Source: Shinella kummerowiae
GTDB taxonomy: Bacteria > Pseudomonadota > Alphaproteobacteria > Rhizobiales > Rhizobiaceae
Reading direction: 5' to 3'
Length of the DNA: 64,000 nt
Assembly (NCBI RefSeq): GCF_009827055.1
Contig: NZ_WUMK01000010.1
Span: 62,001 to 126,000 of the forward strand
Shown here: piece by piece, positions 27,830 to 50,722 of the stretch
Numbering within the stretch: position 1 is the first letter of the stretch
How the letters are laid out: each line of letters starts with the position of its first letter
The notes under the pieces: model-generated
Told to the model about the DNA's origin: nothing
The model's input: the letters and a program-made list of their open reading frames with translations, nothing else
Database searches by the model: none
Program-made: the position numbers and the translations under genes

Positions 27830-29788
27830 CTATTGCGCGGCGAACATCGGCCCGCCCTTGTGAGCGGGAAAGCCGTAACCGTTAATCATGACCAGATCGA
27901 TGTCGCCGGGTCGCGTGGCGACCCCCTCCGCGAGCAATGCTTTCCCCTCATCGACCATGGCCATGAGCAGACGATCCATGATTTCCTCTGCCGTAAAAGC
28001 GCGCGGAACGATGTCTTTCTTCACCCGCGCCGCGTCGATCAACGCCGTCACGACGGGATCGACCATGCGTTCGCCGTTTGCGTAGGTGTACCAACCGAGG
28101 CCGGTCTTGCGGCCAAGACGACCAGCCTCGCACAGTCTGTCGGCGATCTCGACATAGCGCTCCGCCGGGTCGCGGGCTGCAGCCTGTCGCTTGCGGCGCG
28201 CCCAGGCGATGTCGAGGCCGGCCATGTCATTGACGGCGAAAATGCCCATCGGAAAGCCATAGGCCTCAAGCGCGGCATCGATCTGGTACGGCAGGGCGCC
28301 ATCCTCGAGCATGAACTCCGCCTCGCGGCGATAGGCAGAGAAGATGCGGTTGCCGATGAAACCTTCGGTGACGCCGCAGACCACGGCTAGCTTGCCGAGG
28401 CGTTTGACGAAAGCGAGCGCGCTGGCCAGCACATCGGGCGCGGTTTTCGCGCAATCGACGACCTCCACCAGCCGCATGACATTGGCCGGCGAGAAGAAAT
28501 GCAGGCCGACCACCCGGGACGGATCGGCCGTGGCGGCCGCAATCGTATCCGGATCGAGATAGCTCGTATTGGTCGCCAGAATGGCGCCCGGCGCCACGAT
28601 GCCGTCGAGCGTGCGAAACAGCGCCGTCTTGACGGAAAGATCGTCGAAGACGGCTTCCACGACGAGGTCGGCGGTCGCAAGGTCCTTCGCCTCGGCGGTC
28701 GTTTCCAGCCGGGCAAGGCATGCATCGCGTGCCTCCGCCGTCAGACGCCTGGATTGCACGGCCTTGTCGAGAAGGCCGGCGATGCGCTCGTGTCCACTGG
28801 CCGCGGCCTCGCGAGTCTGCTCCAACGCGACGACGCGGTAACCGCTGGTCAGCGCCGAGACAGCAATGCCGGAGCCCATCAGCCCGGTGCCGACCACCCC
28901 GACGGTGTCGATCCGCCGCGGCGCCACATCGGCGAGCGTTTCGACCTTGCCGGCGGCGCGCTCGGCGAAAAAGACGTGCCGCAGGGCCGCCGATTCCGTG
29001 GAATCGCGCAAATGCAGGAATGTGGCGCGCTCCTCCGCCAAGCCCTGTTCGAGGCCGAGGCTGCCTGCGGCCCTCACAAGGCGAACAGCCTCAGCGGGGG
29101 CGGACTGGCCGCGGCTCTTGGCAATGATCTTTGTCGCCGCCATGTCGATAGCGGCGCTGTCCGCGGCGGGAACATTCATCCCGCCGGTGCGGCGAAGCGG
29201 TCGCCCAGCATTGTCACGCACGGCCGCAACGGCCGCCGTGAGAGGGTCGGCAACGACGGCATCGGCGAGGCCGAGCGCTAAGGCTTCGTCCGCCTTTGCC
29301 GCCCGCCCCGTTCCGATGAGGTCGATGGCTGCAATCGTGCCGATCAGGCGCGGCAGCCTCTGTGTTCCACCGGCACCGGGAACGATGCCGAGTTTCACCT
29401 CCGGCAGGCCGAACGTGGCGGTCTCGCCGGCAATGCGCCCATGGCAGGCGAGCGCGACCTCGCAACCGCCGCCAAGTGCTGCACCGTTCACGGCGCAGAT
29501 TACGGGTTTATCGAAAGCCTCGATCCGGTCGATCACGTCAGGCAGCGACGGCCCGACCGGGGGCGTGCCGAACTCTCGGATATCCGCCCCGCCGATAAAG
29601 GTGCGGCCTGCGCCCGAGATGACAAGCCCGACGATATGCGATGCGTTGACAGTGTAATCCAGCGCTGCGACCAGCCCGGACCGGACATGCACCGAGAGGG
29701 CGTTGACGGGCGGATTGTCGATGGCAACGACGAGCACGCCGCCCTCCAGGCGGGCAGAAACACTCTGCGAAAATCGCATCTCGGCCAT
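27830..29788 (-). CDS. Bifunctional enoyl-CoA hydratase/3-hydroxyacyl-CoA dehydrogenase (FadB/FadJ-like)
   Basis: A 652-residue fusion: N-terminal crotonase domain (about 1-190, with oxyanion-hole segment ISGAGRTFIGGADI and ALGGGCEVALACHG), then an NAD-binding 3-hydroxyacyl-CoA dehydrogenase domain (about 290-475, VGVVGTGLMGSGIA) and its C-terminal helical domains (GFIGNRIFSAYRREAEFML). It is shorter than FadB (about 730) but typical of the peroxisomal-type fusion. A GTG at 29803 overlapping the RidA stop is an alternative start; the ATG at 29788 has GAGG upstream. As last gene of the aminobenzoyl-CoA operon it can hydrate and oxidise the ring-derived CoA ester. Confidence 0.9.
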   Translation of the reverse strand: MAEMRFSQSVSARLEGGVLVVAIDNPPVNALSVHVRSGLVAALDYTVNASHIVGLVISGAGRTFIGGADIREFGTPPVGPSLPDVIDRIEAFDKPVICAVNGAALGGGCEVALACHGRIAGETATFGLPEVKLGIVPGAGGTQRLPRLIGTIAAIDLIGTGRAAKADEALALGLADAVVADPLTAAVAAVRDNAGRPLRRTGGMNVPAADSAAIDMAATKIIAKSRGQSAPAEAVRLVRAAGSLGLEQGLAEERATFLHLRDSTESAALRHVFFAERAAGKVETLADVAPRRIDTVGVVGTGLMGSGIAVSALTSGYRVVALEQTREAAASGHERIAGLLDKAVQSRRLTAEARDACLARLETTAEAKDLATADLVVEAVFDDLSVKTALFRTLDGIVAPGAILATNTSYLDPDTIAAATADPSRVVGLHFFSPANVMRLVEVVDCAKTAPDVLASALAFVKRLGKLAVVCGVTEGFIGNRIFSAYRREAEFMLEDGALPYQIDAALEAYGFPMGIFAVNDMAGLDIAWARRKRQAAARDPAERYVEIADRLCEAGRLGRKTGLGWYTYANGERMVDPVVTALIDAARVKKDIVPRAFTAEEIMDRLLMAMVDEGKALLAEGVATRPGDIDLVMINGYGFPAHKGGPMFAAQ

Positions 29789-29799
29789 TGCGGCAAGCC

Positions 29800-30195
29800 T
29801 CACTCTGGGACGACCGCGGTGGCCTGGATTTCGATCTTGGCGCGATCCTCTACCAGTGCGACCACCTGCATCGCCGCCATCGCCGGATAATGCCTGCCGA
29901 TGGTCTCGCGGTAGGCCTGGCCAATGCCGCGCAGGTTGCCGAGATATTCCTGCTTGTCGGTGAAATACCAGGTCATCGTGGTGATGTGATGGGGCTCGGC
30001 GCCGCCTGCCGCGAGCACGGCGACGACGTTCTTCAGTGTCTGGCGCACCTGTTCCACAAAATCGTCGGTCTCGAATTCGGAGCGCTCGTTCCAGCCGATC
30101 TGGCCGCCGACGAAAAATGTGCGGCCCGTTGCCGCCACGCCGTTGGAATAGCCGATGGGCTTCGCCCAGCCTTCAGGTTGCAGGATGGTGTGCAT
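29800..30195 (-). CDS. RidA family protein (reactive enamine/imine deaminase)
   Basis: A 131-residue YjgF/RidA-family protein. Family blocks FFVGGQIGW and the C-terminal ALVEDRAKIEIQATAVV are seen; the conserved Arg of active RidA is not obvious at its usual place, so deaminase activity is not certain. It overlaps the thioesterase gene by 23 bp and sits in the CoA-catabolic operon. Products of 2-aminobenzoyl-CoA reduction carry an enamine that must be hydrolysed, and a RidA-like protein would suit this step; that is inference. Confidence 0.87.
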   Translation of the reverse strand: MHTILQPEGWAKPIGYSNGVAATGRTFFVGGQIGWNERSEFETDDFVEQVRQTLKNVVAVLAAGGAEPHHITTMTWYFTDKQEYLGNLRGIGQAYRETIGRHYPAMAAMQVVALVEDRAKIEIQATAVVPE

Positions 30196-30601
30196 GGGGC
30201 GTCTCCAGATGAGATGTCAGTGCGGTGCGAATATCGTCCGGCCAAGGAAGCGAGGCGTGGCTGTCGAGCGAGGTGGCGACGATGCGGTGTTTGGCGGTCC
30301 AGAGCTCAATGCCCCGCGCCGACACCGTATGCTCCATGTCGAGTGACGAACGGCCGATGCCGTGCACCGCGAGCGCGAAATCCAGTTCGTCGCCCTGAAA
30401 GCCTGGGCGGCGGAACGTGAGGTCGAGGCGCACCGTCGGCACGCCGATGCGCCGCTCGTCGGTCATCGCCTTCCAGGGAAAACCGAGTGAGGCGAAGAAA
30501 TCCTCCAGCACGCCCACGAGGATGTTGAGATAGGACGGGAAGTAGGCGATCCCCGAAGGGTCGCAATCCCCGAACCGCAGCGGCTTTTTGGTCGTGTACA
30601 C
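30173..30601 (-). CDS. Acyl-CoA thioesterase (4-hydroxybenzoyl-CoA thioesterase type, hotdog fold)
   Basis: A 142-residue hotdog-fold protein. I choose GTG at 30601, preceded by AGGAGG about 10 bp upstream; the frame further upstream runs through the acyl-CoA dehydrogenase end and has no family match. The motif RFGDCDPSGIAYFPSYL contains the Asp of the 4HBT active site (D-x-x-G). It would release CoA from a dead-end or product thioester within this operon. It lies 14 bp after the acyl-CoA dehydrogenase. Confidence 0.85.
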   Translation of the reverse strand: MYTTKKPLRFGDCDPSGIAYFPSYLNILVGVLEDFFASLGFPWKAMTDERRIGVPTVRLDLTFRRPGFQGDELDFALAVHGIGRSSLDMEHTVSARGIELWTAKHRIVATSLDSHASLPWPDDIRTALTSHLETPHAHHPAT

Positions 30602-30615: not shown

Positions 30616-31803
30616 CTATCGCGCCGAGCTCTTCATCAGCTCGCGGCCGATGATGAGCTTTTGCACTTCCGTCGCGCCCTCGTAGATGCGCAGTGCCCTG
30701 ATCTCGCGGTAGAGCCGCTCGGTGATCTCGCCGGAGCGCACGCCGCGGCCACCGAAAAGCTGGAGCGCCTGGTCGATGACCCACTGCGCATTTTCCGTCG
30801 CCGTCATCTTCGCCATCGCCGCTTCACGCGTCGTCGACAGCTTCTGCACATCGCGCTTCCACGCGGTGCGGCATGTCAGCAGCGCCGCGGCATCGATGGC
30901 GGTCGCCATCTCGCCAAGCGTGCTTTGCGCTGTCGGCAGATCGGCCAGCGTCGCGCCGAACATCTTTCGGTTTTTGGCGTGCGACACCGCTTCATCGAGT
31001 GCGCGGCGCGCGAAGCCGGTGGCGGCGGCGGCGACCGATGGGCGAAAAATGTCGAGCGTGCGCATGGCGATCTTGAAGCCTTCGCCGGGGCTTCCGAGAA
31101 GCTGTGTTGCCGGAATGCGGCAATTGTCGAAACGGATGCGGGCGAGTGGATGCGGTGCAATCGTCTCGATGCGCTCGGCAATCGTGAAGCCTGGCGTATC
31201 CGCGAAGACGACGAAAGCGGAAATGCCGCGCGTGCCGGGCGCCTCTCCGGTGCGGGCGAAGACCGTGTAGACATCGGCAATGCCGCCGTTCGAGATCCAG
31301 GTTTTTTCACCGTCGAGCACGAAATCGTCGCCGTCGCGGCGCGCCGCACAGGCAAGGGCAGCGACATCCGATCCGGCCTCCGGCTCGGAAAGCGCAAAAG
31401 CCGAGATCCATTCGCCGGTCGCGACCTTGGGCAGGATGCGTTCCTTCAGCGCCTGCGAGCCGGAAAGGCTGATCGCGCCGGTGCCGAGCCCCTGCATGGC
31501 GAAGGCGAAGTCGGCGAGGCCATCGGCATAGGCAAGCGTCTCGCGCGCAAGGCAGAGTGCCCGGCTGTCGATCTCCTCGCGCGCACCGCCGAACGCTCCT
31601 GGCACGCAGTGGCGAAGAAGGCCAGCGGCACCAAGGGCTCCCACCAGCTGCCGGCAGGCGGCATCGACATTGCTGTGATCGACGTCGTCGAGGCCGCCAC
31701 GGGCAATGAAACCGTCAAGCTCGGCCGCAAGGGTGCGATGGCTCTCGTCGAAGAACGGCCAGTCGAGGTGATCGCGTGTCGGCGTCTTCGGGTCGGCGTG
31801 CAT
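30616..31803 (-). CDS. Acyl-CoA dehydrogenase
   Basis: A 395-residue FAD-dependent acyl-CoA dehydrogenase, full length. Signatures: [15 protein letters not shown] (FAD/substrate loop), [18 protein letters not shown], and the C-terminal [19 protein letters not shown] segment near the FAD adenine. The ATG at 31803 has GGGGAACTGACC upstream; longer upstream frames are shadows of the hydratase gene. In the operon it would oxidise an acyl-CoA to enoyl-CoA, one of the beta-oxidation-like steps after ring dearomatisation. Confidence 0.92.
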
Positions 31804-32659: not shown

Positions 32660-33430
32660 TCACAGGATTTCGCCGCCGGCGACCGCGATGGCCTGGCCGG
32701 TGATCGCAGTCGCCTTTTCCGAGACGAGCCAGGAAATGGTGTGGGCCACCTCGCCGGGTGTCACCAGCCGGCCCTGAGGATTGGCGCGGGCGAGGGTAGC
32801 GCGGGCGTCCTCGCGCGAGCGGCCGGTCTTCTCGCTGATCGTGTCGAGCGCGCCATCGATGAGCGGCGTGTCGGTGAAACCCGGGCAGACGGCATTGACG
32901 GTCACGTCGCTACGCGCCAGCTCCAGTGCCAGCGCCCGCGTCAGACCGATGACACCATGTTTGGATGCGCAATAGGCCGAGACATAGGCGTAGCCGGTAA
33001 GGCCGGCGGTGCTGGCGACATTGACGATCCGGCCGTTCCCGGCCCGGCGCACGGAGGCGAGTGCGGCCTGCGTCACCAGAAAGACGCCCGTCAAGTTGAT
33101 GGAAAGGACCCGTTGCCAGAGCGCCAGGTCGGTTTTCTCGAAAGGCGCGGACGGCGCCTCGCCGGCACAATTGACGAGGACCGCAATATCGTCGGCTTGC
33201 GCGATGGCGCCGGCGATCCCGCGTTCTACCGACCCGGCATCGGTCACGTCGAAACCGTGGTGAACGAAGGCCTCTCCGCCTGACGCACGGATTTCATCGC
33301 GCACGGCCTCCAGCGGGGCTGCGCGCCGGCCTGCAAGGCTCACGGTATGGCCATCGGCTGCGAGGGCAAGCGCTATCGCCTTGCCAATGCCGCTGCCGGC
33401 GCCTGTGACGAGAGCGTGCCGTCTGCTCAT
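32660..33430 (-). CDS. SDR family oxidoreductase (3-hydroxyacyl-CoA dehydrogenase-like)
   Basis: A 256-residue classical SDR with [20 protein letters not shown], catalytic Ser in NVASTAG and YCASK, and the C-terminal [13 protein letters not shown]. It overlaps the flavoprotein gene by 4 bp (ATGA). Its place between the monooxygenase/reductase and the hydratase suggests reduction or oxidation of a cyclic 3-hydroxyacyl/ketoacyl-CoA. Confidence 0.9.
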
Positions 33431-35748
33431 GACTTGCCCGCCGTCGTTGCCGCACGGGCGAGGTTATTCACATATTGCCCGCGGGCGGAATGGTACTGTT
33501 TTGGCCAGGGCTGGGCGTCATAGCCGATCTTCGCCGCCTCGTGCAGGACGAAGGAGGGGTCGGCCAGATGCGGGCGGGCGACGGCGCAGAGATCCGCACG
33601 GCCGGCTGCGATGATCGAATTGGCGTGGTCGGCCTCGGAAATCGCCCCAACGGCAATGGTCGGCACCTGGATCTCATTGCGGATCTTGTCGGAGAACGGC
33701 GTCTGGAACAGGCGGCCATAGACCGGCTTTTCCTCCTTCACCACCTGGCCGGAGGAGCAATCGATCATGTCAGCGCCGGCCTCCTTGAACATCCGGGCGA
33801 AAATCGCCGCGTCCTCCGGCGTGTTGCCGCCTTCGAGCCAGTCATGCGTCGACAGGCGCACCGAGATCGGCTTGTCCTCGGGCCACACCTTGCGGATGGC
33901 GTGGAACACTTCGAGCGGGAAGCGGGCGCGGGCCGCGTGCTCGCCGCCGTAGCCGTCGGTGCGCCGGTTGGTCAGCGGCGACAGGAAGCTCGACAGCAGA
34001 TAGCCGTGCGCGGCGTGCAGTTCGAGGATATCGAAGCCGAGATCACGCGCCCGTTCGGTCGCCTGCACGAAGTCGTCGATGACGCGGTCCATATCTTCTC
34101 GGGTCATTTCACGCGGCGTCTGGGAATGGGCGAGATAGGGTAGCGCGGAAGCAGACATCAGCGGCCAGCCGCCCTCCGCAAGCGGCTGGTCGATCCCCTC
34201 CCAGGCCAGCTTCGTGGCGCCCTTGCGTCCCGCATGGCCGAGCTGGATACCGATCTTGGCCGGCGTCTGATGGTGGACGAAATCGACGATGCGCTGGAAG
34301 GCCTGTTGCTGATCGTCGTTCCACAGGCCAAGGCAGCCGGGCGTGATGCGGGCATCGGGCGACACGCAGGTCATTTCGGGGAAGACGAGGGCGGCACCGC
34401 CCATGGCGCGCGCGCCGAGATGCACGAGGTGGAAATCGCCCGGCACGCCGTCCGTCGCCGAATACATCGCCATCGGCGACACCACGATGCGGTTGCGCAG
34501 CGTCAGGCCACGGAGTTTGAACGGTGTGAACATCGGCGGCGGCACCGTGCCGTTTGCCGCAGGCTCCGCGCCCGCCTGTTCGGCGAACCAGCGCTCGAAA
34601 CCTTCAAGCCAGACCTTGTCGCGCAGGCGAAGATTCTCGTGGCTGATGCGCTGCGAGCGGGTCAGCATCGAATACATGAACTGCTCGGGCTCCAGCGTAT
34701 CGGCATAACGCGTGCCGACGACCTCGAACCATTCCATGGCGTTGCGCGCGGCATTCTGGATGCGGGCGACGTCGACGCGGCGCACGTCTTCGTAAGCCGC
34801 GAGCACGGCGGAGATTTGCGCCTTGTCGTGGCCGAGCCTGTCGAATTGACGGGTCAGCTCGATCGCATCGTCGATGGCGAGCTTGGTGCCCGAGCCGATG
34901 GCGAAATGGGCGGTATGAGCGCTGTCGCCCATCAGCACGACATGGCTGTTGCCGTTGAAATGGCTCCACTTCTCGCAGATCAACCGGCCGAAGTTCAGCC
35001 AGGCCGAGCCGCGCTGATGCCGCGCATTGGTCATCAGCGAATGGCCGTCCAGCGTGCCGGAAAAGAGCTTTTCGCAGAACTCGATGGACTGTTGCTGGTC
35101 CATCCGGTCAAGGCCATGGGCCTTGTAGACGTCGTCCGTCGTCTCGACAATGAAGGTCGAGGTCGTGTCGTCGAAGCGATAGATATGCGACTGGAACCAG
35201 CCGTGCTCTGTGCGCTGGAAATCGAAGGTGAAGGCATCGAACAGCTTGTTGGTGCCAAGCCAGATATAGCGGTTGGGCCGCACGACCATGTCGGGTTGGA
35301 AGACTTCGGCATATTTGTTGCGGATGCGCGAATTGACACCATCCGACGCGATGATGAGATCCGCATCGGCAAATTCCGCCTCGCTTTCCACATCGCGCTC
35401 GAACAGCAGTTCGACGCCGAGTTCCAAGCAGCGGTCCTGCAGGATGTTGAGCATCTTCCGGCGGCCGATGCCGACGAAGCCGTGGCCCGTCGTGCGGATC
35501 TTGCGGCCCTTGAAGACGAGTTCGATGTCGTCCCAATGGTTGAAGGAGACCTCGATCGCCTCCGCCGTCTCCGGATCCCATTGGCGCATCGACTGCATGG
35601 TGGCATCGGAAAAGACCACCCCCCAGCCAAATGTATCGAATGCGCGGTTGCGCTCGACGACAGTGATCTGGTGTTCCGGGTGCTGGCGTTTCATGAGCAG
35701 CGCAAAGTAGAGACCGGCAGGCCCACCACCGATACAGACGATCCGCAT
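33427..35748 (-). CDS. Two-domain flavoprotein: 2-aminobenzoyl-CoA (or salicylyl-CoA) monooxygenase/reductase
   Basis: A 773-residue fusion. Residues 1 to about 390 form an FAD aromatic hydroxylase domain ([17 protein letters not shown] at the N-terminus, [21 protein letters not shown] in the middle). From about 406 an old-yellow-enzyme domain follows ([34 protein letters not shown]). This exact architecture is known from 2-aminobenzoyl-CoA monooxygenase/reductase of Azoarcus evansii and from salicylyl-CoA 5-hydroxylases. The ATG at 35748 has GGAGGAGAAC upstream. With a ligase, kynureninase and beta-oxidation genes nearby, 2-aminobenzoyl-CoA is the best substrate guess: monooxygenation and reduction dearomatise the ring. 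It leads a seven-gene operon. Confidence 0.92.
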
Positions 35749-35945: not shown

Positions 35946-36470
35946 TCAGGCACCCTTGGCGAGGGACGCGACGATAGAGCGTTTAAGCTTGGCAAGCTCA
36001 TCCATCAGCACGCCGCCATCGTTCGGTGCCAGGCCGGCGAAGAGGTCCGAGATCCAGTCGGCATGGCGGGCCGCCATTTTCTCGAATTCGCCACGGCCGA
36101 AGGGGGTAAGCGCGATGATCTGCACGCGTCGGTCGGTCGGCAGCGTCGTGCGACTGAGATGCCCGCTCTCGGTCAGCCGCTCCACCAGAACCGTGATATT
36201 GCCCGGCGAGACCATCATGCGCTTGGAGACTTCGCCGAGCACCATGCCATCCGGCGCACGTTCGAGCTGGGCCATCAGGTCGAAGCGCGGCAGGGTCGAA
36301 TCGAATTCTTCCCTCAACCGCCGCCGCACCTCGCTCTCGACCAGGGTCGAACACGTCAACAGGCGCAGCCACAGCCGAAGCTCGGCGCGGTGATCGTGCG
36401 GAGCCTCCAAGACCTTGGTTTCGCCATCCAGCCAATCCGGCGCGATGTCGAACGTGTCGTCACCCGTCAT
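35946..36470 (-). CDS. MarR family transcriptional regulator
   Basis: A 174-residue MarR-type winged-helix regulator: N-terminal dimerisation helix, HTH and wing around LGEVSKRMMVSPGNITVLVERL and RTTLPTDRRVQIIALTP. Members of this kind often repress aromatic-acid CoA-pathway genes and respond to aryl-CoA esters. It is just upstream of and codirectional with the monooxygenase/reductase operon (197-bp gap with an operator-like palindrome). Confidence 0.9.
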   Translation of the reverse strand: MTGDDTFDIAPDWLDGETKVLEAPHDHRAELRLWLRLLTCSTLVESEVRRRLREEFDSTLPRFDLMAQLERAPDGMVLGEVSKRMMVSPGNITVLVERLTESGHLSRTTLPTDRRVQIIALTPFGRGEFEKMAARHADWISDLFAGLAPNDGGVLMDELAKLKRSIVASLAKGA

Positions 36471-36550: not shown

Positions 36551-37312
36551 TCATTTCGGCAGTTGCGTGCGCGGAACGGGCAGGGCGCCACCGCCGTCTT
36601 CGGATTGCACATAGACATTGACCGTAAAGCCGATGTGGTCGGCCATCAGCGCCTGCGCGTGGCTGGCGTTCCGGTCGAGCGCGGCCTCCATGAGTTCCGT
36701 GTGGTGCTCGATCGCCATGGCGTCGCGCAGCGCGGCAACCGCCTCCTCATACCCCTCGCTCCTGCCTTCGGCGGCCCGTATCGCCGGGGCGAGGCTGAGG
36801 AACCGGTGATGCCGGCGGAGCTGGTCGGAAATGGTCGCCTGAAACCGCAGGAGCCAGGTCGACCGCGCCGCACTGATCAGCGCCGCATGGAAGGCGGTGT
36901 GCTTCTCATCCCACTCGTCGATCTCGCTTTCGGTCGCGGTCTCGACGACGAGTTTGCAGCGCGACAGCCGATAATGCGCCGTGACGACCGCGGATTCCCA
37001 GTCGCTGCCGCCGTTTTCTATCGCCTCAAGGAGAAGCGGGACTTCGACGACCAGACGCGCGCGGGTGAGATCCTCAAGCTCCTCGCGCGAGACCGGCGCC
37101 ACGGCAAAACCGCGATTGCTGATTGCGGTGACAAGCCCCTCCGCCTCCAGGCGCGACAGCGCCTCGCGGAGCGGGGTCCAGCCGAGCTCGTAGCGGTCGC
37201 GCAACGCGCTGAGCTTCATCGGCGCGCCGGGCCTCAGCCGCGTCGCGAGAATGTCGCGCCGCAGAAGCCGGTAGGCGGATTCGGTTTTGGTCGATTGCCC
37301 CTGATCTTGCAT
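36551..37312 (-). CDS. GntR family regulator, FCD subfamily
   Basis: A 253-residue regulator with N-terminal winged HTH (about 12-80, LSALRDRYELGWTPLREALSRL) and FCD domain (AFHAALISAARSTWLLRF; metal-type His). The ATG at 37312 has AAGGGA upstream; a GTG one codon earlier is possible. It is divergent from the TrpX-type importer and kynureninase genes. A large AT-rich inverted repeat fills the shared promoter, so autoregulation and control of the importer operon are likely, perhaps in response to kynurenine, tryptophan or anthranilate. Confidence 0.9.
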   Translation of the reverse strand: MQDQGQSTKTESAYRLLRRDILATRLRPGAPMKLSALRDRYELGWTPLREALSRLEAEGLVTAISNRGFAVAPVSREELEDLTRARLVVEVPLLLEAIENGGSDWESAVVTAHYRLSRCKLVVETATESEIDEWDEKHTAFHAALISAARSTWLLRFQATISDQLRRHHRFLSLAPAIRAAEGRSEGYEEAVAALRDAMAIEHHTELMEAALDRNASHAQALMADHIGFTVNVYVQSEDGGGALPVPRTQLPK

Positions 37313-42533: not shown

Positions 42534-43220
42534 TCAAACGCCGAGATAGCGGTCCTGAAGTTCCGGGGTCAGCCCCGCCGGCGTGCCTTCGAAGACCGTT
42601 GCGCCCTTTTCCAGCACGAAACACCGGTCGGCCACCGGAAGCAGTTCCGAGAGCGTCTTGTCGACGACGAGGATCGACTGGCCGGCGGCCTTCAGCTTGC
42701 GGATCGCGGACCAAATGTCTTGCCGGATGACGGGTGCCAGACCCTCGGTGGCTTCGTCCAGAATGAGCAGCCTTGGATTGGTCATCAGGGCACGGCCGAC
42801 GGCAAGCATCTGCTGTTCTCCGCCGGACAGCGTGCGGGCATACTGGTCGCGCCGCTCGCCAAGGCGGGGGAAGAGATCGATGACTTTCGCAAACGTCCAT
42901 TCGCTGCCGCGCGCCGTGGCGACGAGATTTTCCATCACCGTCAGGTTGGGAAAGCAGCGCCGTCCTTCGGGCACGAGGCCAAGGCCGAGCCTGGCGATGC
43001 GATGCGGCCGCATGCCGAAAATCGCCTTGCCACCAAAATTGATCACACCGGCGCGCGGGCGCACAAGGCCGATGATCGAGTTGATCGTCGTCGTCTTGCC
43101 CATGCCGTTGCGCCCCATGAGGGCCACGACTTCGCCTTCCCGAATGTCGAGATCGACGCCGAACAGCGCCTGCGAAGCGCCGTAGAAGGTTTCGAGGCCT
43201 TTGAGATCAAGGAGGGTCAC
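42534..43220 (-). CDS. Branched-chain-type ABC transporter ATP-binding protein (LivF-like)
   Basis: A 228-residue ATPase with GRNGMGKTT, LSGGEQQMLAVGRAL and LLILDEATEGLAP, and the short LivF form. It is the last gene of the Liv-type cluster and overlaps the LivG-like gene by 4 bp (ATGA). The importer shares an operon with a ligase and tryptophan dioxygenase, so an aromatic amino acid or acid such as anthranilate is a better guess than leucine. Confidence 0.93.
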   Translation of the reverse strand: MTLLDLKGLETFYGASQALFGVDLDIREGEVVALMGRNGMGKTTTINSIIGLVRPRAGVINFGGKAIFGMRPHRIARLGLGLVPEGRRCFPNLTVMENLVATARGSEWTFAKVIDLFPRLGERRDQYARTLSGGEQQMLAVGRALMTNPRLLILDEATEGLAPVIRQDIWSAIRKLKAAGQSILVVDKTLSELLPVADRCFVLEKGATVFEGTPAGLTPELQDRYLGV

Positions 43221-43966
43221 GCGGTTTCTCCCAAATAGGCGCGGCGCACGTCCGGATCGCGGCGAATTTCATCGACCGTGCCCGTCGCGATGATGCGGCC
43301 ATAGACGAGCACCGAGATGCGGTCTGCCAGTGCAAAAACCGCATCCATGTCGTGCTCCACCAAGAGCATCGGCGCTTCGTGGCGCAGGCCATCGAGGAAC
43401 GATGTCAGCTGCTTGGAGCCCTCCGGCCCCATGCCCGCCATGGGTTCGTCGAAGAGGAAGGCTTTGGGCGAGAGTGCGAGCGCGATGGCGATTTCAAGCT
43501 GGCGGCGTTCGCCATGCGATAGCTCCGCCGCCGGTACCTTCGCGCGCGCGGCAAGGCCAACTCGCTCCAGCATGGCCATGGCCGGATCAATCAGGCTTCT
43601 GTCACTTGCCACCTGCCGGAAGAACCGGAAGCTGCTGCCCTCCTTCGCCTGGATCGCCAGCATGACGTTGCGCAGCGCGGAGAATTCCTGCGCGAGCGAG
43701 GAGATCTGGAAACTGCGGGCAAGCCCGAGCCTTGCCCGCGCCGCCATGTCGAGCCCGCCTATATCCTGGCCGAGAAAGCGGATCGTACCGCTGTCGGCGG
43801 CAAGCGAGCCGGAGATCTGGTGGATGAGCGTGCTCTTGCCGGCACCGTTCGGGCCGATCAGCGCGTGGATCTGGCCGGGATGAAGGTCGAGGCTGACGCC
43901 ATCCGTGGCCTTCAAGGCATTGAAGGATTTGCGCAGATCGCGGATTTCGAGAATGGGCTCAGACAT
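43217..43966 (-). CDS. Branched-chain-type ABC transporter ATP-binding protein (LivG-like)
   Basis: A 249-residue ATPase with GPNGAGKST, a variant signature LSHGERRQLEIAIAL and Walker B AFLFDEPMAGMGPEGS, typical of LivG. The ATG at 43966 gives MSEPILEIRDLRKSF; the longer frame upstream is in the LivM gene. It overlaps the LivM-like gene by 8 bp. Confidence 0.93.
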   Translation of the reverse strand: MSEPILEIRDLRKSFNALKATDGVSLDLHPGQIHALIGPNGAGKSTLIHQISGSLAADSGTIRFLGQDIGGLDMAARARLGLARSFQISSLAQEFSALRNVMLAIQAKEGSSFRFFRQVASDRSLIDPAMAMLERVGLAARAKVPAAELSHGERRQLEIAIALALSPKAFLFDEPMAGMGPEGSKQLTSFLDGLRHEAPMLLVEHDMDAVFALADRISVLVYGRIIATGTVDEIRRDPDVRRAYLGETA

Positions 43967-44930
43967 GGCGCGGCTTTCCCGAGAGCAGGCCGAGCAGCCC
44001 GCCACGCGCGAAAAGCACGATGCCGAGCAGGATGAGGCCGAGGAAGAACTGCCAGCGCTCGGTGATGCCGCCGAGCACATATTCGAGGCAGACGAAGATC
44101 ATCGCGCCGGCAACAGGCCCGAAGAGCCGCCCCTTGCCGCCGAGGATGATGAGCACCATGAGCTCGCCCGACATGTGCCAGGAGAGCATGGATGGGCCGA
44201 CAAAACGATTGAGATCGGCATAGAGCGCGCCGGCAAGGCCGGTGATCATCGCCGAGAGCGTGAAGGCGACGAGCCGTATCTGGAAGGGCGGGATGCCGAC
44301 AGCGGCAAGGCGCACCCCATTCTGCCGGGCCGCCTGCAGCGCGCTGCCAAAGCGCGAGCCCTCGACGAGGCGAAACAGCAGGAGCGCTGCCATCAGCACG
44401 GCAAAACAGATCAGGAAATAGGGCAGCGGTTGCGCGGTGTTGATGCCGGGAAAGGCGTTGCGCACATAGATCGACAGGCCGTCCTCGCCGCCATAAGCCG
44501 GCCAGGAGATGGCGAAATAGTAGATCATCTGCGCGAAGGCGAGCGTGATCATGATGAAGTAGACGCCGGTCGTGCGCAGGCTGATTGCGCCGATCGGCAG
44601 CGCGACCAGCCCGGCGACCACGACCGCAGCCAGCCAGATCAGCGGCATCGAGGTTGTGCCGGGAATGCCGGCAAAGAGCGGTTCGGCGTTGAACGCATGG
44701 GTCGCCAGAATGCCGGCGACGTAGCCACCGAGGCCGAAGAAGGCGGCGTGCCCGAAAGACAGCAGCCCACCGAGCCCCAGCGCAAGATTGAGGCCGACGG
44801 CAGCGAGCGCGAGCACGACGACACGGGTGGCGAGCGTCACATAGAAGGGTTCGCCCATGCCGGCCGCGACGAGCGGCAGGCCAAGAAGAAGGAGGGTGAT
44901 GAGCAGGTTGACGGTGGTTTCGCGGGTCAT
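43959..44930 (-). CDS. Branched-chain-type ABC transporter permease (LivM-like)
   Basis: A 323-residue permease with about nine membrane helices and the LivM-specific LGLGGLLSFGHAAFFGLGGY. The ATG at 44930 (MTRETTVNLL) is 7 bp after the LivH-like stop. It forms the channel together with the LivH-like protein. Confidence 0.93.
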   Translation of the reverse strand: MTRETTVNLLITLLLLGLPLVAAGMGEPFYVTLATRVVVLALAAVGLNLALGLGGLLSFGHAAFFGLGGYVAGILATHAFNAEPLFAGIPGTTSMPLIWLAAVVVAGLVALPIGAISLRTTGVYFIMITLAFAQMIYYFAISWPAYGGEDGLSIYVRNAFPGINTAQPLPYFLICFAVLMAALLLFRLVEGSRFGSALQAARQNGVRLAAVGIPPFQIRLVAFTLSAMITGLAGALYADLNRFVGPSMLSWHMSGELMVLIILGGKGRLFGPVAGAMIFVCLEYVLGGITERWQFFLGLILLGIVLFARGGLLGLLSGKPRHV

Positions 44931-44937
44931 CGGATCC

Positions 44938-45858
44938 TCACGACCGGGTCGCGAACAGGCCGCTCGGCCTGAAAGCGAGAATGAGCGCCATGACGACATA
45001 GATCAGCATCGAGGCAAGCGCTGCGCCGATCGTGGTGGCCTGCGCGGCCGGCATGGTCAGCGCAAGCAACGACGGCAGCAGGAAACGGCCCATCGTATCG
45101 ACAACGCCGACGATGACCGCGCCGACGAGTGCGCCCTTGATGGAGCCGATGCCGCCGATGACGATGACGACGAAGGCGAGGATGAGCACCGGCTCGCCCA
45201 TGCCGACCTGAACCGACTGGAGCGCACCGACCAGGGCACCCGCGAGACCCGCAAGCGCGGCGCCAAGCGCGAAGACCACGGTGTAGAGCGTGCTGATATC
45301 GACGCCGAGGGCGGCGATCATCTCGCGGTCGGATTCGCCAGCGCGAATGCGCATGCCGAGCCGCGTGCGGGAAATCAGGAGATAGAGGCCGATGGCCACC
45401 GCAATACCGACGGCGATGATCGCCAGACGGTAGAGCTGGTACTGGCCGCCGCCCGGCAGCGGCACCGCCCCTTGAAGCTGTTTGGGAATATCGAGATAGA
45501 GCGGGAACGAGCCGAAAAGCCAGCGCGCGCCCTCGGACAGGATCAGGATCAGCGCGAAGGTGGCGAGCACCTGGTCGAGGTGGTCGCGGTCGTAAAGCCT
45601 TCGGATGACCGCGACTTCGATCAGCGCCCCGACGCCGGCGGCGGCGGCAAGGCTGGCGACGAGGCCTAACCAGAAGGAGCCGGTGGCCGCGGCCACCGCG
45701 GCGCAGGCGAAGGCGCCGATCATGTAGAGCGAGCCGTGGGCGAGGTTGATCAGGCCCATTACGCCGAAAATCAGCGTCAGGCCGGCGGCCATAAGAAACA
45801 GCATGACGCCGAGCTGGAGCCCGTTCAGGAGTTGTTCGATGAGGAGTGCGGTGAACAC
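44938..45858 (-). CDS. Branched-chain-type ABC transporter permease (LivH-like)
   Basis: A 306-residue permease with eight or so helices, the LivH block FGVMGLINLAHGSLYMIGAF and the cytoplasmic loop RTRLGMRIRAGESDREMIAAL. The start is a GTG at 45858 with a weak ribosome site. It is preceded by a 94-bp gap from the binding-protein gene, holding a very stable hairpin. Confidence 0.92.
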   Translation of the reverse strand: MFTALLIEQLLNGLQLGVMLFLMAAGLTLIFGVMGLINLAHGSLYMIGAFACAAVAAATGSFWLGLVASLAAAAGVGALIEVAVIRRLYDRDHLDQVLATFALILILSEGARWLFGSFPLYLDIPKQLQGAVPLPGGGQYQLYRLAIIAVGIAVAIGLYLLISRTRLGMRIRAGESDREMIAALGVDISTLYTVVFALGAALAGLAGALVGALQSVQVGMGEPVLILAFVVIVIGGIGSIKGALVGAVIVGVVDTMGRFLLPSLLALTMPAAQATTIGAALASMLIYVVMALILAFRPSGLFATRS

Positions 45859-45952: not shown

Positions 45953-47089
45953 TTACAGGCCGCACTGGTCGGCATAGACGTCCTTGTGATTTTCGAAGGC
46001 GGTCGCAACGATCTTGTTGGTCAGCATATCGCCATCCTTCACTACCTCGCGCACATAGATGTTCTGGATCGGGTGCTGGTTCTTGTTGAAGGCGAACGTG
46101 CCACGCACGGATTTGAAGTCGGCCGCCTTCAGTGCCGCGCGGAAGGCATCCTTGTCCTTGACGCTTGCCTTGGACAGCGCCGAGAGGATCAGGTTTGCCG
46201 TGTCCCAGCTCTGCGCCGCATAGACCGAGGGAAGGCGGTTGTACTCGGCCTTGAAGCTTTCGACGAAGGCCTTGCTGGCCTCGTTGTCGAGGTCCGGCGA
46301 CCAGCTGGCGGAATTCTTCACGCCGAGCGCTGCATCCCCGACGGCCGGCAGCACGTCCTGATCGAAGGAGAAGCCAGGGCCCATGACCGGAATGCCGACG
46401 CCCGACTGGGCATATTGCTTCATGAAGGCAATGCCCATGCCGCCGGGCAGGAAGAAATAGACGGAATCGGCGCCCGATGCGCGGATCTGCGCGATCTCGG
46501 CCGCATAGTCCGTCTGGCCGACCTGGGTGTAGACCTCGCCGGCCAGGCTGCCTTTATAGAAGCGCTTGAAGCCGGTCAGCGCATCCTTGCCCGCCGGGTA
46601 GTTGGGCGCGAGGATGAACGAGTTCTTGTAGTCCTTGTTGGCATATTCGCCCATGCCTTCATGGAAGTTGTCATTCTGATAGGCCACGTTGAAATAGTTC
46701 GCGTTGCAGTTCGTGCCGGCCAGCGCCGAGGGGCCGGCGTTCGGCGAAAGATAGATGACGTCCTGCGCCACCGTGTTCGGCACGACGGCCATGGCGAGGT
46801 TCGACCAGATGATGCCCGTCATCAGATCGACCTTGTCGCCCTGGATCATCTTTTCCGCGATCTGCACCGCCAGTTCCGGCTTCTGGGCGTCGTCCTCGAT
46901 CACGAGTTCCACGTCCTTGTTGCCCGACTGCTTGATGGCGAGCGTGAAGGCGTCGCGCATGTCGATGCCGAGGCCGGCACCGCCGCCCGAAAGCGTGGTG
47001 ATGACGCCGATCTTCACCGGTTCTGCATAGGCAAGGCTGGATGTCGCGAGAGAAAGGCCAAAGAGGCTCGCTGCCAAAATACGGTTCAT
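45953..47089 (-). CDS. Branched-chain-type ABC transporter substrate-binding protein
   Basis: A 378-residue Peripla_BP_6 protein with a signal peptide (ILAASLFGLSLATSSLAYA, cleavage before EPVKIGV). The mature part is the type I fold (IGVITTLSGGGAGLGIDMRD). Members of this branch often bind aromatic acids. It lies between the tryptophan dioxygenase (39-bp gap) and the permeases, so anthranilate, kynurenine or tryptophan are likely ligands. Confidence 0.92.
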   Translation of the reverse strand: MNRILAASLFGLSLATSSLAYAEPVKIGVITTLSGGGAGLGIDMRDAFTLAIKQSGNKDVELVIEDDAQKPELAVQIAEKMIQGDKVDLMTGIIWSNLAMAVVPNTVAQDVIYLSPNAGPSALAGTNCNANYFNVAYQNDNFHEGMGEYANKDYKNSFILAPNYPAGKDALTGFKRFYKGSLAGEVYTQVGQTDYAAEIAQIRASGADSVYFFLPGGMGIAFMKQYAQSGVGIPVMGPGFSFDQDVLPAVGDAALGVKNSASWSPDLDNEASKAFVESFKAEYNRLPSVYAAQSWDTANLILSALSKASVKDKDAFRAALKAADFKSVRGTFAFNKNQHPIQNIYVREVVKDGDMLTNKIVATAFENHKDVYADQCGL

Positions 47090-47128: not shown

Positions 47129-47965
47129 TCAAAGGTCTGTACGAACATGCCATAGCTCGGGGAAGAGTTCCACTTCCAGCATCTTCTTGAGATAGGATGC
47201 ACCGGAGGTGCCGCCGGTGCCGCGCTTGAAGCCGATGATGCGCTCGACCGTGGTAACGTGGTTGAAGCGCCAGCGCCGGAAATAATCCTCGAAATCGACC
47301 AGCTTTTCGGCAAGCTCGTAGAGCATCCAGTAGCGCTGCGGGTTGCGATAGACGGTCTGCCAGGCTGCAAAAACCTTGCCGTTCTCGGCGCGCGTCTCGC
47401 GCCAGTCGCCGCGTTCCGCCTCGTCGCCGATGTCGAAGCCGTTGCGGCCCAGAAGCCGGATCGCCTCGTCGTAAAGCGAAGGTGCGGCGAGAATGGCTTC
47501 CAGCTTTTCCATGATATCGGGGCGATGCGCGTGCGGGCGCAGCATGGCGAGGTTGCGGTTGCCGGCAAGGAATTCGATCGCCCGGTACTGCCAGGACTGG
47601 AAACCCGAGGATTGCCCAAGCGAATCCCGGAACTCGGTATATTCGCTCGGCGTCATCGTGCGCAGCACGTCCCAGGCGCTGTTGAGCTGTTCGAAGATGC
47701 GAGCGACGCGCGACAGCATCTTGAAGGCGGGCTCCAGATGATCCTCCCGAAGCGACCGGATCGCCGAACTGATCTCATGCAGGGCAAGCTTCATCCAGAG
47801 TTCCGAGGTCTGGTGCTGGATGATGAACAGCATCTCGTCATGCGCGTCCGACAGCGGCGCCTGCGCCGTCAGCACCTTTTCCAGCTTGAGATAATCGCTG
47901 TAGGACATGCGTTCCTTGAACGACATCTGCGCGCCTTCCGTGGAAGGGTCGTACGGCTTGCTCAT
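47129..47965 (-). CDS. kynA: Tryptophan 2,3-dioxygenase
   Basis: A 278-residue heme dioxygenase, the size of bacterial TDO. The distal-pocket His is in [18 protein letters not shown] and the heme-ligand His is in [19 protein letters not shown]; the substrate loop [16 protein letters not shown] follows. The ATG at 47965 has GGAG upstream. It converts L-tryptophan to N-formyl-L-kynurenine, the first step of the pathway completed by the formamidase at 49892 and kynureninase at 40241. The gap to the ligase gene is 1 bp. Confidence 0.96.
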
Positions 47966-47966
47966 T

Positions 47967-49586
47967 TCAATGCTCCGTGCGCAGGCGAAAACGCTGGATC
48001 TTGCCCGTCGGCGTCTTCGGCAGGGCATCCAGGAATTTCACCGAGCGGGGGTATTTGTAAGGGGCGATCAATGCCTTCACATGATCTTGCAGGCGCTTTA
48101 TCGTCGCCTCGTCGGCCGAAACGCCGGCCACCAGAACGACATGGGCCTCGACGATCTGGCCGCGCTCGCTATCGGTTGCACCGATCACGGCGCATTCTGC
48201 CACGTCCGCATGGGCGATCAGGGCCGCCTCTACTTCAGGGCCGGCGATGTTGTAGCCCGCGCTGATGATCATGTCGTCGGAGCGGGCGGCGAAGTGGAAA
48301 AAGCCGTCCTCGTCCTGCAGGAAGGCGTCGCCCGTGAGGTTCCAGCCGTCGCGCACATAGTCGCGCTGGCGGGCATCGGCCATGTAGCGGCAGCCGGTCG
48401 GGCCGCGCACCGCAAGCTTGCCGACCGTACCACGCGGCAGTTCCTGCATCTCCTCGTCGACGATCCGCGCCTCATAGCCGCCCACGGGTTTGCCGGTGGA
48501 GGCCGCCTTGCGGTCTTCAAAACGGTTGGAAATGAAGATGTGCAGCATTTCGGTTGCGCCGATTCCATCGAGGATCGGCTTTCCGGTCTTTTGTGTCCAT
48601 TCGTCGAAGACCGGACCGGGCAGCGTTTCACCGGCGGAGATGGCGACACGCAACGACGAGAGGTCCGCGCCGGCATCCATCGCCTTCAACATGGCGCGGT
48701 AGGCGGTGGGGGCGGTAAACGAGATCGTCGCCTTGTAGGTTTCTATGATCTCCACCATCAGCGCCGGCGTCGCCTGCTCGAGCAGCGTCGCGGCCGCGCC
48801 GAAGCGTAGCGGAAAGATGGCAAGACCGCCGAGGCCGAAGGTGAAGGCGAGCGGCGGCGAGCCGACGAAGACGTCCTCGGGAGTCACCGTGAGAACTTCC
48901 TTCGCATACCCGTCGGCGATTACCATCAGGTCGCGGTGAAAGTGCATGGTCACCTTCGGCACGCCCGTGGTGCCGGATGTGAAACCGAGCAGCGCCACGT
49001 CATCGCGTCCCGTTCGAACGGCGTCGAAGGTGACCGGCTTGTCGAGCGCGACACGGTCTAGTTCCGCATCATGGTTCGCGGTACCGTCAAAGCCGATGAC
49101 CTGTTTGAGATAGCGGCTGTCCTTGGCGCAAGCGATCATTTCGTCCATCAGGCGCGTATCACAGAGCGCCAGGCTGATTTCGGCCTTGTCTACGATCTTC
49201 GTGAGTTCGCCTGCGCGCAGCATCGGCATCGTATTGACCACGACGGCGCCCGCCTTGGTGGCGGCAAGCCAGCAGGCAACCATGGCCGGATTGTTGGCCG
49301 AGCGGATGAGGACGCGGTTGCCGGGCTTCACGCCGTAATTTTCAACGAGCGCATGCGCCAGCCGGTTCGTCCAGTCGGAGAGTTCCTTGTAGGTGCGCCG
49401 CCGCCCGTTGCCGATCAGCGCGGTCCGGTCGCCCACACCCTTCGCGACCATTGCATCCGTCAGTTCCACGGCGGCGTTGAGATGGTCCGGATAGTCGAAG
49501 CCGTCGAGCAGGAAATCCGGCCATTCCCCCGGCGGCGGCAGGTTGTCGCGGGTGAACGTATCGACATGTGCGGTCGGTCCAAGCAT
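47967..49586 (-). CDS. Aromatic acid-CoA ligase, probable 2-aminobenzoate-CoA ligase
   Basis: A 539-residue acyl-adenylate-forming enzyme. ATP-binding loop [11 protein letters not shown] followed by the MHFHRDL block seen in benzoate/2-aminobenzoate-CoA ligases, [31 protein letters not shown], and the C-terminal catalytic Lys in [14 protein letters not shown] choose the ATG at 49586 with GGGGAG upstream; the upstream frame to 49805 is not conserved-looking. It leads the operon ligase-TDO-SBP-LivHMGF and would activate anthranilate for the monooxygenase/reductase at 33427. Confidence 0.92.
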
Positions 49587-49891
49587 GTAGCGGCTACTCC
49601 CCTGTTCCAGTCCTACCTGTTTCCCAGGCGCGTTCAAAGCCGATGAGATGGTGTTTGGCCGCGCAATGACACTCGTCCGGGCATGGCTTCGCCGGATCGC
49701 GTCGTCGCGCAACAAATGCATCGATGGTGATGGGCACAGCGAAGACCTCCACTTCTGCGCTGAACATGGAGCAGCATCGCATCTGTCAAAAATTATTTCA
49801 AGCATAAAGTTTCTCGTCCGATGGCATTGCCTTTGCCGACGGTCCGGGCGATTGCTATGGCGCTGGCCGCATCAACGGGAGGAGTGCAGCG
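49587..49891. other. Intergenic region between the ligase operon and the formamidase gene
   Basis: A 305-bp divergent control region. No supported gene. Its centre (49785-49815) is AT-rich and holds the candidate MarR operator, placing that site where it could control both directions. Confidence 0.5.
49794..49811. promoter_or_regulatory. Candidate MarR operator upstream of the ligase operon and formamidase
   Basis: TATTTCAAGCATAAAGTT matches the 35841-35858 palindrome at 15 of 18 positions, sharing the core TTTCAAGC-TAAA. It lies in the divergent gap, 208 bp from the ligase start and 81 bp from the formamidase start. Confidence 0.55.
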
Positions 49892-50722
49892 ATGCTGGAA
49901 TACCGCATTTCGGATTGGGACGACGCCTATGCCAATGGCGTGAACATCGCACGCAGCGATCGTTGGCCGGAGGCCTGGACCCGGCCCGCCGAGGCGTTCC
50001 GCGACACATTGCTTTCGGCCGGGCGCGCGAAACTCGACCTCGCCTATGGCGAGCGTCCGCGCAACCGCCTGGATCTCTTTCTCCCGGAAGGGTCAGCCAA
50101 AGGCCTGGTCGTCTTCGTGCATGGTGGCTTTTGGCTGCAGACCGATAAAAGCGTCTGGTCGCATCTGGCCGCTGGTGCCATCGCGAGCGGTTTCGCCGTT
50201 GCCATGCCGTCCTACACGCTGTGCCCGGAGGTTCGCATCGCAGAGATCGTAAGGGAAGTCGCCGCAGCCATCGGGGAAGCCGCAAAGCGCGTCGAAGGCC
50301 CGCTGATGCTGACCGGGCACTCCGCCGGCGGACATCTCGCCAGCCGGATGGTCACGGCGACGTCGCCTCTCGCGCCCCACGTTCAGCAGCGCATCCGCAA
50401 TGTCGTCTCCATTTCCGGCCTGCACGACCTGCGCCCGCTTCTATCCACCGCGATGAACGAAAAGCTTGCCCTCGACGAAGCGGAAGCGCTTGCCGAAAGC
50501 CCGGCGCTGCTGCGGCCGATGGAAAATACCCGCATCACCTGCTGGGTTGGCGGCAGCGAACGCGCGGAATTCCTGCGCCAGACCGCGTTGCTCGCCAATA
50601 TCTGGACGGGGTTGGGCGCGACCACCGCAGAGGTCGTCGAGCCCAACAAACATCACTTCGACATTCTCGACGGCCTGACCGACGCGGCGCATCCGCTGAC
50701 CCGGACCCTGCTGTCGGCGTGA
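49892..50722 (+). CDS. Alpha/beta hydrolase, probable kynurenine formamidase (AFMID type)
   Basis: A 276-residue esterase-fold protein. Oxyanion-hole motif HGGFW starts at H77 and the nucleophile is Ser144 in GHSAGGH; Asp and His of the triad are expected near residues 210-255 (KHHFDIL). HGG(F/Y)W with GHSAGGH is typical of eukaryote-like arylformamidases, which hydrolyse N-formylkynurenine to kynurenine and formate. It is divergent from the operon with tryptophan dioxygenase. The unrelated metal-dependent KynB of pseudomonads is absent from this window. Confidence 0.85.
   Translation: MLEYRISDWDDAYANGVNIARSDRWPEAWTRPAEAFRDTLLSAGRAKLDLAYGERPRNRLDLFLPEGSAKGLVVFVHGGFWLQTDKSVWSHLAAGAIASGFAVAMPSYTLCPEVRIAEIVREVAAAIGEAAKRVEGPLMLTGHSAGGHLASRMVTATSPLAPHVQQRIRNVVSISGLHDLRPLLSTAMNEKLALDEAEALAESPALLRPMENTRITCWVGGSERAEFLRQTALLANIWTGLGATTAEVVEPNKHHFDILDGLTDAAHPLTRTLLSA

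Follow-up and report, generated by a model that had tools for sequence, protein, structure and literature searches.

A probable tryptophan and anthranilate catabolic island of Shinella kummerowiae with a Rid protein that lacks the catalytic arginine

Gene content and edges of the island

Positions 27830-50722 of a 64,000-nucleotide stretch of contig NZ_WUMK01000010.1 from Shinella kummerowiae (here, the window) hold an island of about 23 kb whose genes point to breakdown of tryptophan through anthranilate and 2-aminobenzoyl-coenzyme A (CoA). Thirty reading frames in and around the island, a few of them spurious and without any match, were scanned with NCBIfam models, and gene starts were refined by means of Shine-Dalgarno-like sites and annotated relatives. 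All genes named in an earlier, sequence-only reading of this DNA were recovered, with tryptophan 2,3-dioxygenase (TDO), kynureninase (KynU), the fused flavoprotein of the 2-aminobenzoyl-CoA monooxygenase/reductase (ACMR) type, an HaHSL-type hydrolase and the PRK08258 crotonase scoring above their cut-offs (Table 1). That reading had overlooked three genes, which encode a MarR regulator, a GntR regulator and an enzyme resembling serine/threonine dehydratases that depend on pyridoxal phosphate (PLP).

The genes fall into four units. Unit 1, on the minus strand, carries ACMR, a short-chain dehydrogenase/reductase (SDR), the crotonase, an acyl-CoA dehydrogenase, a thioesterase, RidA and a FadJ-like gene, with the MarR and GntR genes upstream. 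Unit 2 (plus strand) consists of a TrpX-type ABC importer, kynureninase and the dehydratase-like gene; unit 3 (minus strand) of the CoA ligase, TDO and a five-gene Liv/Urt-type importer; and the AFMID-like hydrolase stands alone as unit 4 (plus strand). The earlier description of adjoining units served by two importers, here of the TrpX and Liv types, is thereby borne out. DctA lies to the left of the island, and a phosphatase and a PhnT2-like transporter lie to the right.

The edges of the island are visible at the DNA level. Of 266 matching plasmid records, 17, from Sinorhizobium, Ensifer, Shinella and Aminobacter, cover at least 80% of positions 27000-51900. On the left, 15 of the 17 start at query 829-844 (window 27828-27843); on the right, nine end at query 23660-23738 (window 50659-50737), and the other eight end near query 22590-22640, inside or just before the ligase start. 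The 2.2-Mb plasmid of Sinorhizobium sp. RAC02 matches 95% of the island at 90.7% identity and 100% of the left flank at 91.2%, and is absent among the eight matches listed for the right flank. The sequence-only reading had placed the island on a secondary replicon; homology to the RAC02 plasmid makes this location likely for the source genome, a 41-contig draft.

Table 1. Genes of the island, with window coordinates and the matches on which each name is based
Feature	Position	Strand	Evidence
FadJ-like fused enoyl-CoA hydratase/3-hydroxyacyl-CoA dehydrogenase	27830..29788	-	NCBIfam FadJ 423 bits, below cut-off 869
RidA-family protein, Met106 at catalytic Arg site	29800..30195	-	PF01042 71.8 > 27.3 bits; TIGR00004 56.3 < 106.25
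YbgC/FadM-type thioesterase, GTG start	30173..30601	-	weak TIGR02799/TIGR00051 matches
Acyl-CoA dehydrogenase	30616..31803	-	NCBIfam below cut-offs; 5jsc 505 bits
Crotonase-fold protein PRK08258	31806..32648	-	470.5 > 330 bits
SDR family dehydrogenase/reductase	32660..33430	-	NCBIfam PHB_DH 226 bits, below cut-off 307
ACMR-type fused flavoprotein	33427..35748	-	PRK08255 1351 > 1078 bits
MarR regulator	35946..36470	-	weak MarR-family NCBIfam matches
GntR regulator (CsiR-like)	36551..37312	-	148.6 bits, below cut-off 218
TrpX-type substrate-binding protein	37472..38458	+	TrpX 175.6 bits, below cut-off 390
ABC ATPase, TrpX-type importer	38517..39296	+	NCBIfam scan
ABC permease, TrpX-type importer	39302..40225	+	weak permease matches; conserved together with TrpX
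Kynureninase	40241..41488	+	TIGR01814 362.2 > 246.4 bits; 1qz9 485 bits
Serine/threonine-dehydratase-like PLP enzyme	41558..42526	+	EutB 207 bits, below cut-off 413
LivF-type ATPase	42534..43220	-	NCBIfam scan
LivG-type ATPase	43217..43966	-	NCBIfam scan
LivM-type permease	43959..44930	-	NCBIfam scan
LivH-type permease	44938..45858	-	NCBIfam scan
LivK/UrtA-type substrate-binding protein	45953..47089	-	NCBIfam scan
TDO	47129..47965	-	TIGR03036 430.5 > 390.7 bits; 2nox 382 bits
Anthranilate-type CoA ligase	47967..49586	-	TIGR02262 367.9 vs cut-off 375.25 bits; 4wv3 best solved relative
Alpha/beta hydrolase, candidate N-formylkynurenine formamidase	49892..50722	+	HaHSL 375 > 320 bits; 2pbl 268 bits

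Predicted route from tryptophan to 2-aminobenzoyl-CoA

TDO and kynureninase, enzymes of the anthranilate branch of the kynurenine pathway, both score above cut-off. The best solved match of TDO is 2nox. The kynureninase, closest to 1qz9 (presumably the Pseudomonas fluorescens enzyme), matches the remaining three solved kynureninases, presumably including the human one, at 119-137 bits, and in the alignment to 1qz9 it retains W64, G281 and T282, residues which we take to set the preference for kynurenine over 3-hydroxykynurenine. The AFMID-like hydrolase matches the kynurenine formamidase 4e11 weakly (62 bits) and is our best candidate for the formamidase, because no KynB was found in the genome above cut-off (best match 45.4 bits, cut-off 223). 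Judging from family membership, TDO would open the indole ring, the hydrolase would release formate, and kynureninase would yield alanine and anthranilate.

The CoA ligase, which scores higher against the anthranilate-CoA ligase 4wv3 (284 bits) than against benzoate-CoA ligases (225-254 bits), would then form 2-aminobenzoyl-CoA. The PRK08255 match of ACMR, the only two-domain copy in the genome, spans residues 1-763 of 768; by its solved relatives, the N-terminal domain is VioD-like and the C-terminal domain resembles NADH:flavin oxidoreductases and xenobiotic reductases. Folding of ACMR from its single sequence gave an unusable model (pLDDT 36.5). Gene context predicts that ACMR acts on 2-aminobenzoyl-CoA, hydroxylating and partly reducing the ring to 2-amino-5-oxocyclohex-1-enecarbonyl-CoA, which is a known product in Azoarcus (as told in the review PMC4539516). 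On plasmids H164-H166 (Bradyrhizobium elkanii and B. barranii), residues 15-260 of ACMR alone are matched at the E-value used, suggesting truncated copies.

The search of genomes for the same gene set, which the sequence-only reading had suggested as a check, was run on an even draw of 151 genomes of the family, the source genome included. Above-cut-off ACMR is found in 80 genomes, TDO in 73 and kynureninase in 80; when weaker matches are counted, TDO rises to 76 and kynureninase to 87. The TDO figure of 73 comprises 69 genomes over the cut-off and four with full-length matches below it, and leaves out the fragments of G009, G084 and G102 as well as a second, 194-bit match of G100; that of kynureninase leaves out sub-cut-off matches, which keeps 80 of the 87. 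All three genes occur together in 62 of the 151 genomes and lie within 25 kb in 31, with one more where ACMR falls below cut-off. ACMR and TDO are both present in 64 genomes and both absent in 62, ACMR occurs by itself in 16 and TDO by itself in nine (Fisher p 1.7e-17, a value that ignores kinship). Gene order within the trio varies among genera, which argues for repeated functional linkage. Chance co-location is ruled out by the 31 closely linked genomes, the several orders and the plasmid coverage.

Outside the family, 40 of 55 ACMR places over cut-off were fetched, several of them ending at contig ends; TDO is near ACMR in six of the 40 and kynureninase in five, and on the Ruegeria pomeroyi megaplasmid TDO and an alpha/beta hydrolase adjoin ACMR. 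The joining of the two pathway halves had been called unusual, a description that we drop because the set is common in the family, in several gene orders and on plasmids, and is present outside it. One record titled Bacillus subtilis SK6B4 (JAHREI010000003.1, L083) holds an alphaproteobacterial ACMR cluster, 75% identical to the window and ordered like that of Pseudochrobactrum (L092), and is probably contaminated or wrongly labelled.

Neighbours of ACMR were also counted in 80 named loci, which are the closest relatives among the matches listed (at least 80) and not an even sample. A TrpX-type importer accompanies KynU in all 16 named loci that have it and probably carries tryptophan or kynurenine. 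In nine named loci (L033, L041, L043, L050, L051, L060, L061, L069 and L072) ACMR has a Liv-type importer nearby, and the fetched flanks, which extend to 10 kb, contain neither KynU nor TDO; from this company the substrate of the importer is probably anthranilate or a similar acid. A MarR gene (at least 38% identity) is near ACMR in 42 of the 80 named loci and 34 of the 40 outside the family.

We infer the functions of the island enzymes from sequence and context, and on this footing the island is probably a catabolic unit for tryptophan, kynurenine and anthranilate that works via 2-aminobenzoyl-CoA. The joined route from tryptophan through kynurenine and anthranilate to 2-aminobenzoyl-CoA, with its importers, had been proposed earlier; as a prediction it is well supported, sequence and gene context being in agreement. 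The second half has a precedent in an indole-degrading organism, in which, according to the review PMC6221969, an aminobenzoyl-CoA cluster has been proved genetically to be used for degrading anthranilate.

Several observations weigh against this reading. The ligase falls slightly below its TIGR02262 cut-off and lies inside the fetched flanks of ACMR in just 29 of the 80 named loci; HaHSL, the family of the hydrolase, is named after lipases; and the genes identified in the island include no thiolase. Cupriavidus metallidurans CH34, whose genome is annotated with abm, kynU and kyn genes, did not grow on anthranilate (PMC8879955), so that for the present island such growth is no more than predicted.

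Competing routes from anthranilate were looked for in the whole genome. All four of its PF00848 ring-hydroxylating alpha subunits are nearest to GbcA; three score 111-123 bits with the anthranilate dioxygenase models AntA/AndAc, whose cut-offs are 672 and 750 bits, and for the fourth no match to either model is listed at an E limit of 1e-30. The best match to 3-hydroxyanthranilate dioxygenase is 21.9 bits (cut-off 145.95). The genome has pcaH (368.5 bits, cut-off 296.4), a second intradiol gene (L145) next to it and three further intradiol dioxygenases of the catechol type that stay under their cut-offs, so that catechol can perhaps be cleaved. No anthranilate-to-catechol route was found in the genome, in a search that did not include flavin-type anthranilate hydroxylase or kynurenine 3-monooxygenase. 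Given the pcaH and intradiol genes, we can only infer that growth would proceed without catechol, as had been claimed.

The Rid protein and the steps after ACMR

The RidA assignment of the sequence-only reading held for the fold but not for the catalytic arginine. The protein has the Rid fold (pLDDT 92.1 for a structure predicted from 41 sequences) together with Tyr16 and Glu122, the equivalents of Tyr17 and Glu120, and has Met in place of the catalytic arginine (Arg105 of Salmonella enterica). Six of 99 rows of the family search were left out (five at 33-39% identity and one fragment with a stop). The 106 Rid loci compared, some genomes being represented twice, comprise 99 distinct sequences, four of which do not cover the arginine site. 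Met occupies this site in 101 of the 102 covering loci, one having Ile, and in 94 of 95 distinct sequences, while the tyrosine is kept in 99 of 99 distinct sequences and the glutamate in 95 of 95. Outside the family, Met, Tyr and Glu are each found in 28 of 28 Rid sequences.

The Rid gene follows ACMR closely. Of the 151 genomes, 88 have an orthologue (at least 45% identity) and 89 a two-domain ACMR, whether or not this reaches the cut-off: 88 have both, 62 have neither, none has Rid alone and one has ACMR alone (G056, 310 contigs of about 2.6 Mb in all). An ACMR lies no more than 20 kb from 73 of the 93 Rid genes. No other gene accompanies ACMR as regularly in the named loci, where Rid is near it in 79 of 80, SDR in 76, acyl-CoA dehydrogenase in 66 and crotonase in 63; no Rid gene was found in 20 control stretches taken at arbitrary round positions of 20 family genomes. 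Copies are also found in Deinococcus, Arthrobacter, Rhodococcus, Ruegeria and the archaeon Haladaptatus, where the arginine site is Leu, and none is annotated in the ACMR flanks of a Cupriavidus taiwanensis plasmid locus. In Haladaptatus caseinilyticus (L215:9016-19371), an ACMR-like protein is encoded near benzoate-CoA ligase, RidA, acyl-CoA dehydrogenase, SDR and enoyl-CoA hydratase genes. By eye in an alignment, the 13 Rid proteins of the source genome have Arg (eight), Met (two), Trp, Ala or Ser (one each) at the site. Met at the arginine site is not diagnostic by itself, because the second Met-type protein (L224) is encoded on another contig than ACMR.

In Rid proteins the arginine holds substrate carboxylates, and its loss nearly abolishes imine hydrolysis (Niehaus et al., PMC4433059); the Rid4 to Rid7 groups, which lack it, are given there as having unknown functions, with Trp at the site in Rid4 and Rid7 and variable residues in Rid5 and Rid6. 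RutC keeps the arginine and removes the amino group of a beta-enamino acid, 3-aminoacrylate; the R104A exchange inactivates it (PMC8113886). In AmnE, a Rid enzyme that deaminates 2-aminomuconate, Arg117 is one of the conserved residues of the cleft (PMC6742747). The predicted product of ACMR, a beta-enamino thioester, would call for RutC-like chemistry without a free carboxylate, so that the arginine anchor could be replaced while tyrosine and glutamate, which position the water, are kept. We propose that the arginine-less clade is the ammonia-releasing enzyme of the aminobenzoyl-CoA pathway, acting on an enamine in which the CoA thioester hides the carboxylate, and consider the chance of this to be a little short of even. 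Hydrolysis of the enamine at C2 by Rid would release ammonia and leave 2,5-dioxocyclohexanecarbonyl-CoA. Anthranilate-grown Arthrobacter sp. Rue61a holds a C7H8O4 acyl-CoA, possibly cyclohexanedione-carboxyl-CoA as its authors suggest (PMC3534580); this compound would fit the deaminated ring, and the plasmid pAL1 of the same strain encodes an arginine-less Rid.

Against this proposal, published Rid proteins without the arginine had no deaminase activity (PMC4433059, PMC8113886), and deamination of the ACMR product may be spontaneous. Outside the family, moreover, Rid is near ACMR in 28 of 40 loci, with no nearby copy in 12, and is exceeded as a neighbour by MarR (34) and by three genes found in 32 loci apiece, those for acyl-CoA dehydrogenase, crotonase and ligase. 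A literature search found no paper linking Rid to the aminobenzoyl-CoA pathway; most subscription papers lay outside that search, which is no proof of absence.

The inactivity of those published proteins would also suit another job for Rid, either scavenging of 2-aminoacrylate from the dehydratase-like PLP enzyme, whose gene lies within the island, or a non-catalytic role. We regard this alternative as plausible but rather doubtful: 12 of the 80 named loci and none of the 40 outside the family have the PLP gene close to ACMR, compared with 79 and 28 for Rid; the Rid profile tracks ACMR; and no orthologue that covers the two sites has lost Tyr16 or Glu122. The narrower version, a standard RidA that clears 2-aminoacrylate for the PLP enzyme, is weakened by the lost arginine and by the distribution.

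The crotonase would act after Rid in the scheme proposed here. At the sites which we take to be those of the two catalytic hydratase glutamates, all 121 distinct sequences from 124 loci have Ile/Met and Arg/Lys instead, and Asp167, aligned with an Asp of 4fzw_C (PaaG) that is presumably catalytic, is kept in all of them. Because both glutamates are lost and the PaaG-type Asp is kept, the crotonase does not appear to be an ordinary hydratase, the label it had been given as a stand-alone gene, and is possibly a ring-opening hydrolase or an isomerase. The proposed Rid product, 2,5-dioxocyclohexanecarbonyl-CoA, is a 1,3-dicarbonyl, and a crotonase-type hydrolase could therefore open its ring. Thereafter a thiolase encoded outside the island would join SDR, the acyl-CoA dehydrogenase and the FadJ-like protein in feeding the linear C7 acyl-CoA into central metabolism. 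We offer this succession of Rid, crotonase and beta-oxidation-type enzymes tentatively, its order and substrates being conjectural. The thioesterase gene has copies in Ensifer and Aminobacter that are annotated "thioesterase family protein", and a pcaF-type thiolase adjoins the island copy in an Ensifer. To call the island apparently complete, as had been done, is too strong, because no thiolase is among its identified genes, and the post-ACMR steps are without assigned enzymes.

Other ACMR loci differ in this part. Between ligase and RidA, the Deinococcus psychrotolerans cluster (L212:16360-18773) has a cyclase-family gene (perhaps KynB-like) and a gene for a thiamine diphosphate-binding enzyme, a possible alternative ring opener. 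The Arthrobacter, Rhodococcus and Cupriavidus loci (L213, L214, L217) have fumarylacetoacetate-hydrolase (FAH)-family and cupin genes, with no crotonase or SDR annotated in their flanks. Cleavage of 1,3-dicarbonyls is a reaction of FAH-type enzymes, and the FAH-family enzyme may be the ring opener at these three loci.

If the Rid proposal is true, it would give a function to a clade of arginine-less Rid proteins, tie them to a defined substrate and fill the first step after ACMR; it bears on how the amino group is lost in aerobic, CoA-dependent anthranilate breakdown. For the route as a whole, 62 of the 151 sampled family genomes are predicted to degrade tryptophan via CoA thioesters and not catechol, with the predicted route plasmid-borne in Sinorhizobium/Ensifer, Shinella and Aminobacter.

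Other roles for the island and known systems

Another possibility is that the island mainly disposes of anthranilate or kynurenine, which in the rhizosphere would be signals or a toxic overflow, and is no route to growth. A related CoA cluster in Rhodococcus BG43 accompanies the quinolone-cleaving gene aqdC1, and the failure of CH34 to grow on anthranilate (PMC8879955) would fit; the two importers and the beta-oxidation-like set point instead to carbon or nitrogen use, and we think the clearing role improbable. Degradation of salicylate to gentisate, with the flavoprotein as salicylyl-CoA 5-hydroxylase, is very improbable: although NCBI names PRK08255 a bifunctional salicylyl-CoA 5-hydroxylase/oxidoreductase, flavoprotein genes lie within 25 kb of TDO and KynU in 31 genomes, the genes identified in the island include none for a gentisate enzyme, and the presence of a fused reductase domain fits ACMR, whose product is non-aromatic.

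Three observations concern DNA around the island or its plasmid matches. A cluster for hydroxyproline breakdown may lie at window 12007-22967, which matches segments of rhizobial plasmids where genes for a proline racemase, an FAD-binding oxidoreductase and a member of the dihydrodipicolinate synthase family are annotated. Window 50772-56349, a block of phosphatase, PhnT2/PhnU2-like ABC transporter and MurR/RpiR-type genes, is conserved on Shinella plasmids and lies about 26 and about 37 kb away from the island on two Ensifer/Sinorhizobium replicons. Plasmids H90 and H102, labelled Roseateles sp. XES5, carry blocks 79-84% identical to the window and otherwise match Shinella and Rhizobium, which suggests a mislabelled organism or transfer.

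Among known systems, the kynurenine (anthranilate) branch of pseudomonads uses TDO, the formamidase KynB and kynureninase, and anthranilate dioxygenase then converts anthranilate to catechol. The island likewise encodes TDO and kynureninase, but its formamidase candidate is AFMID-like and no anthranilate dioxygenase was found in the genome. The aerobic pathway of Azoarcus evansii (PMC4539516), likened here by description and not by sequence, also has an anthranilate-CoA ligase, a monooxygenase/reductase and beta-oxidation-type enzymes; to these the island adds TDO, the formamidase candidate, kynureninase and two importers. The aminobenzoyl-CoA and kynurenine halves were found named together, in our literature search, in the reconstruction of C. 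metallidurans CH34 (PMC8879955), which likewise places abm, kynU and kyn genes in one genome. That strain differs in its failure to grow on anthranilate and in having a 3-hydroxyanthranilate route as well, and the available text does not state whether the genes adjoin. In Arthrobacter sp. Rue61a, whose plasmid pAL1 serves quinaldine breakdown (PMC3534580), an upper pathway on the plasmid also feeds anthranilate to a ligase and ACMR, and the Rid protein also has Met; ligase activity and CoA intermediates were measured there. The upper pathway is, however, that of quinaldine, and FAH-family and cupin genes near ACMR replace the crotonase/SDR set. The island Rid shares its fold with RidA, RutC (PMC8113886) and AmnE (PMC6742747), of which RutC takes a beta-enamino acid and AmnE belongs to aromatic-amine breakdown; all three retain the conserved arginine where the island protein has Met. 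Set beside these systems, the island consists of known enzymes in a joined and widespread pathway, with one overlooked new element, the arginine-less Rid.

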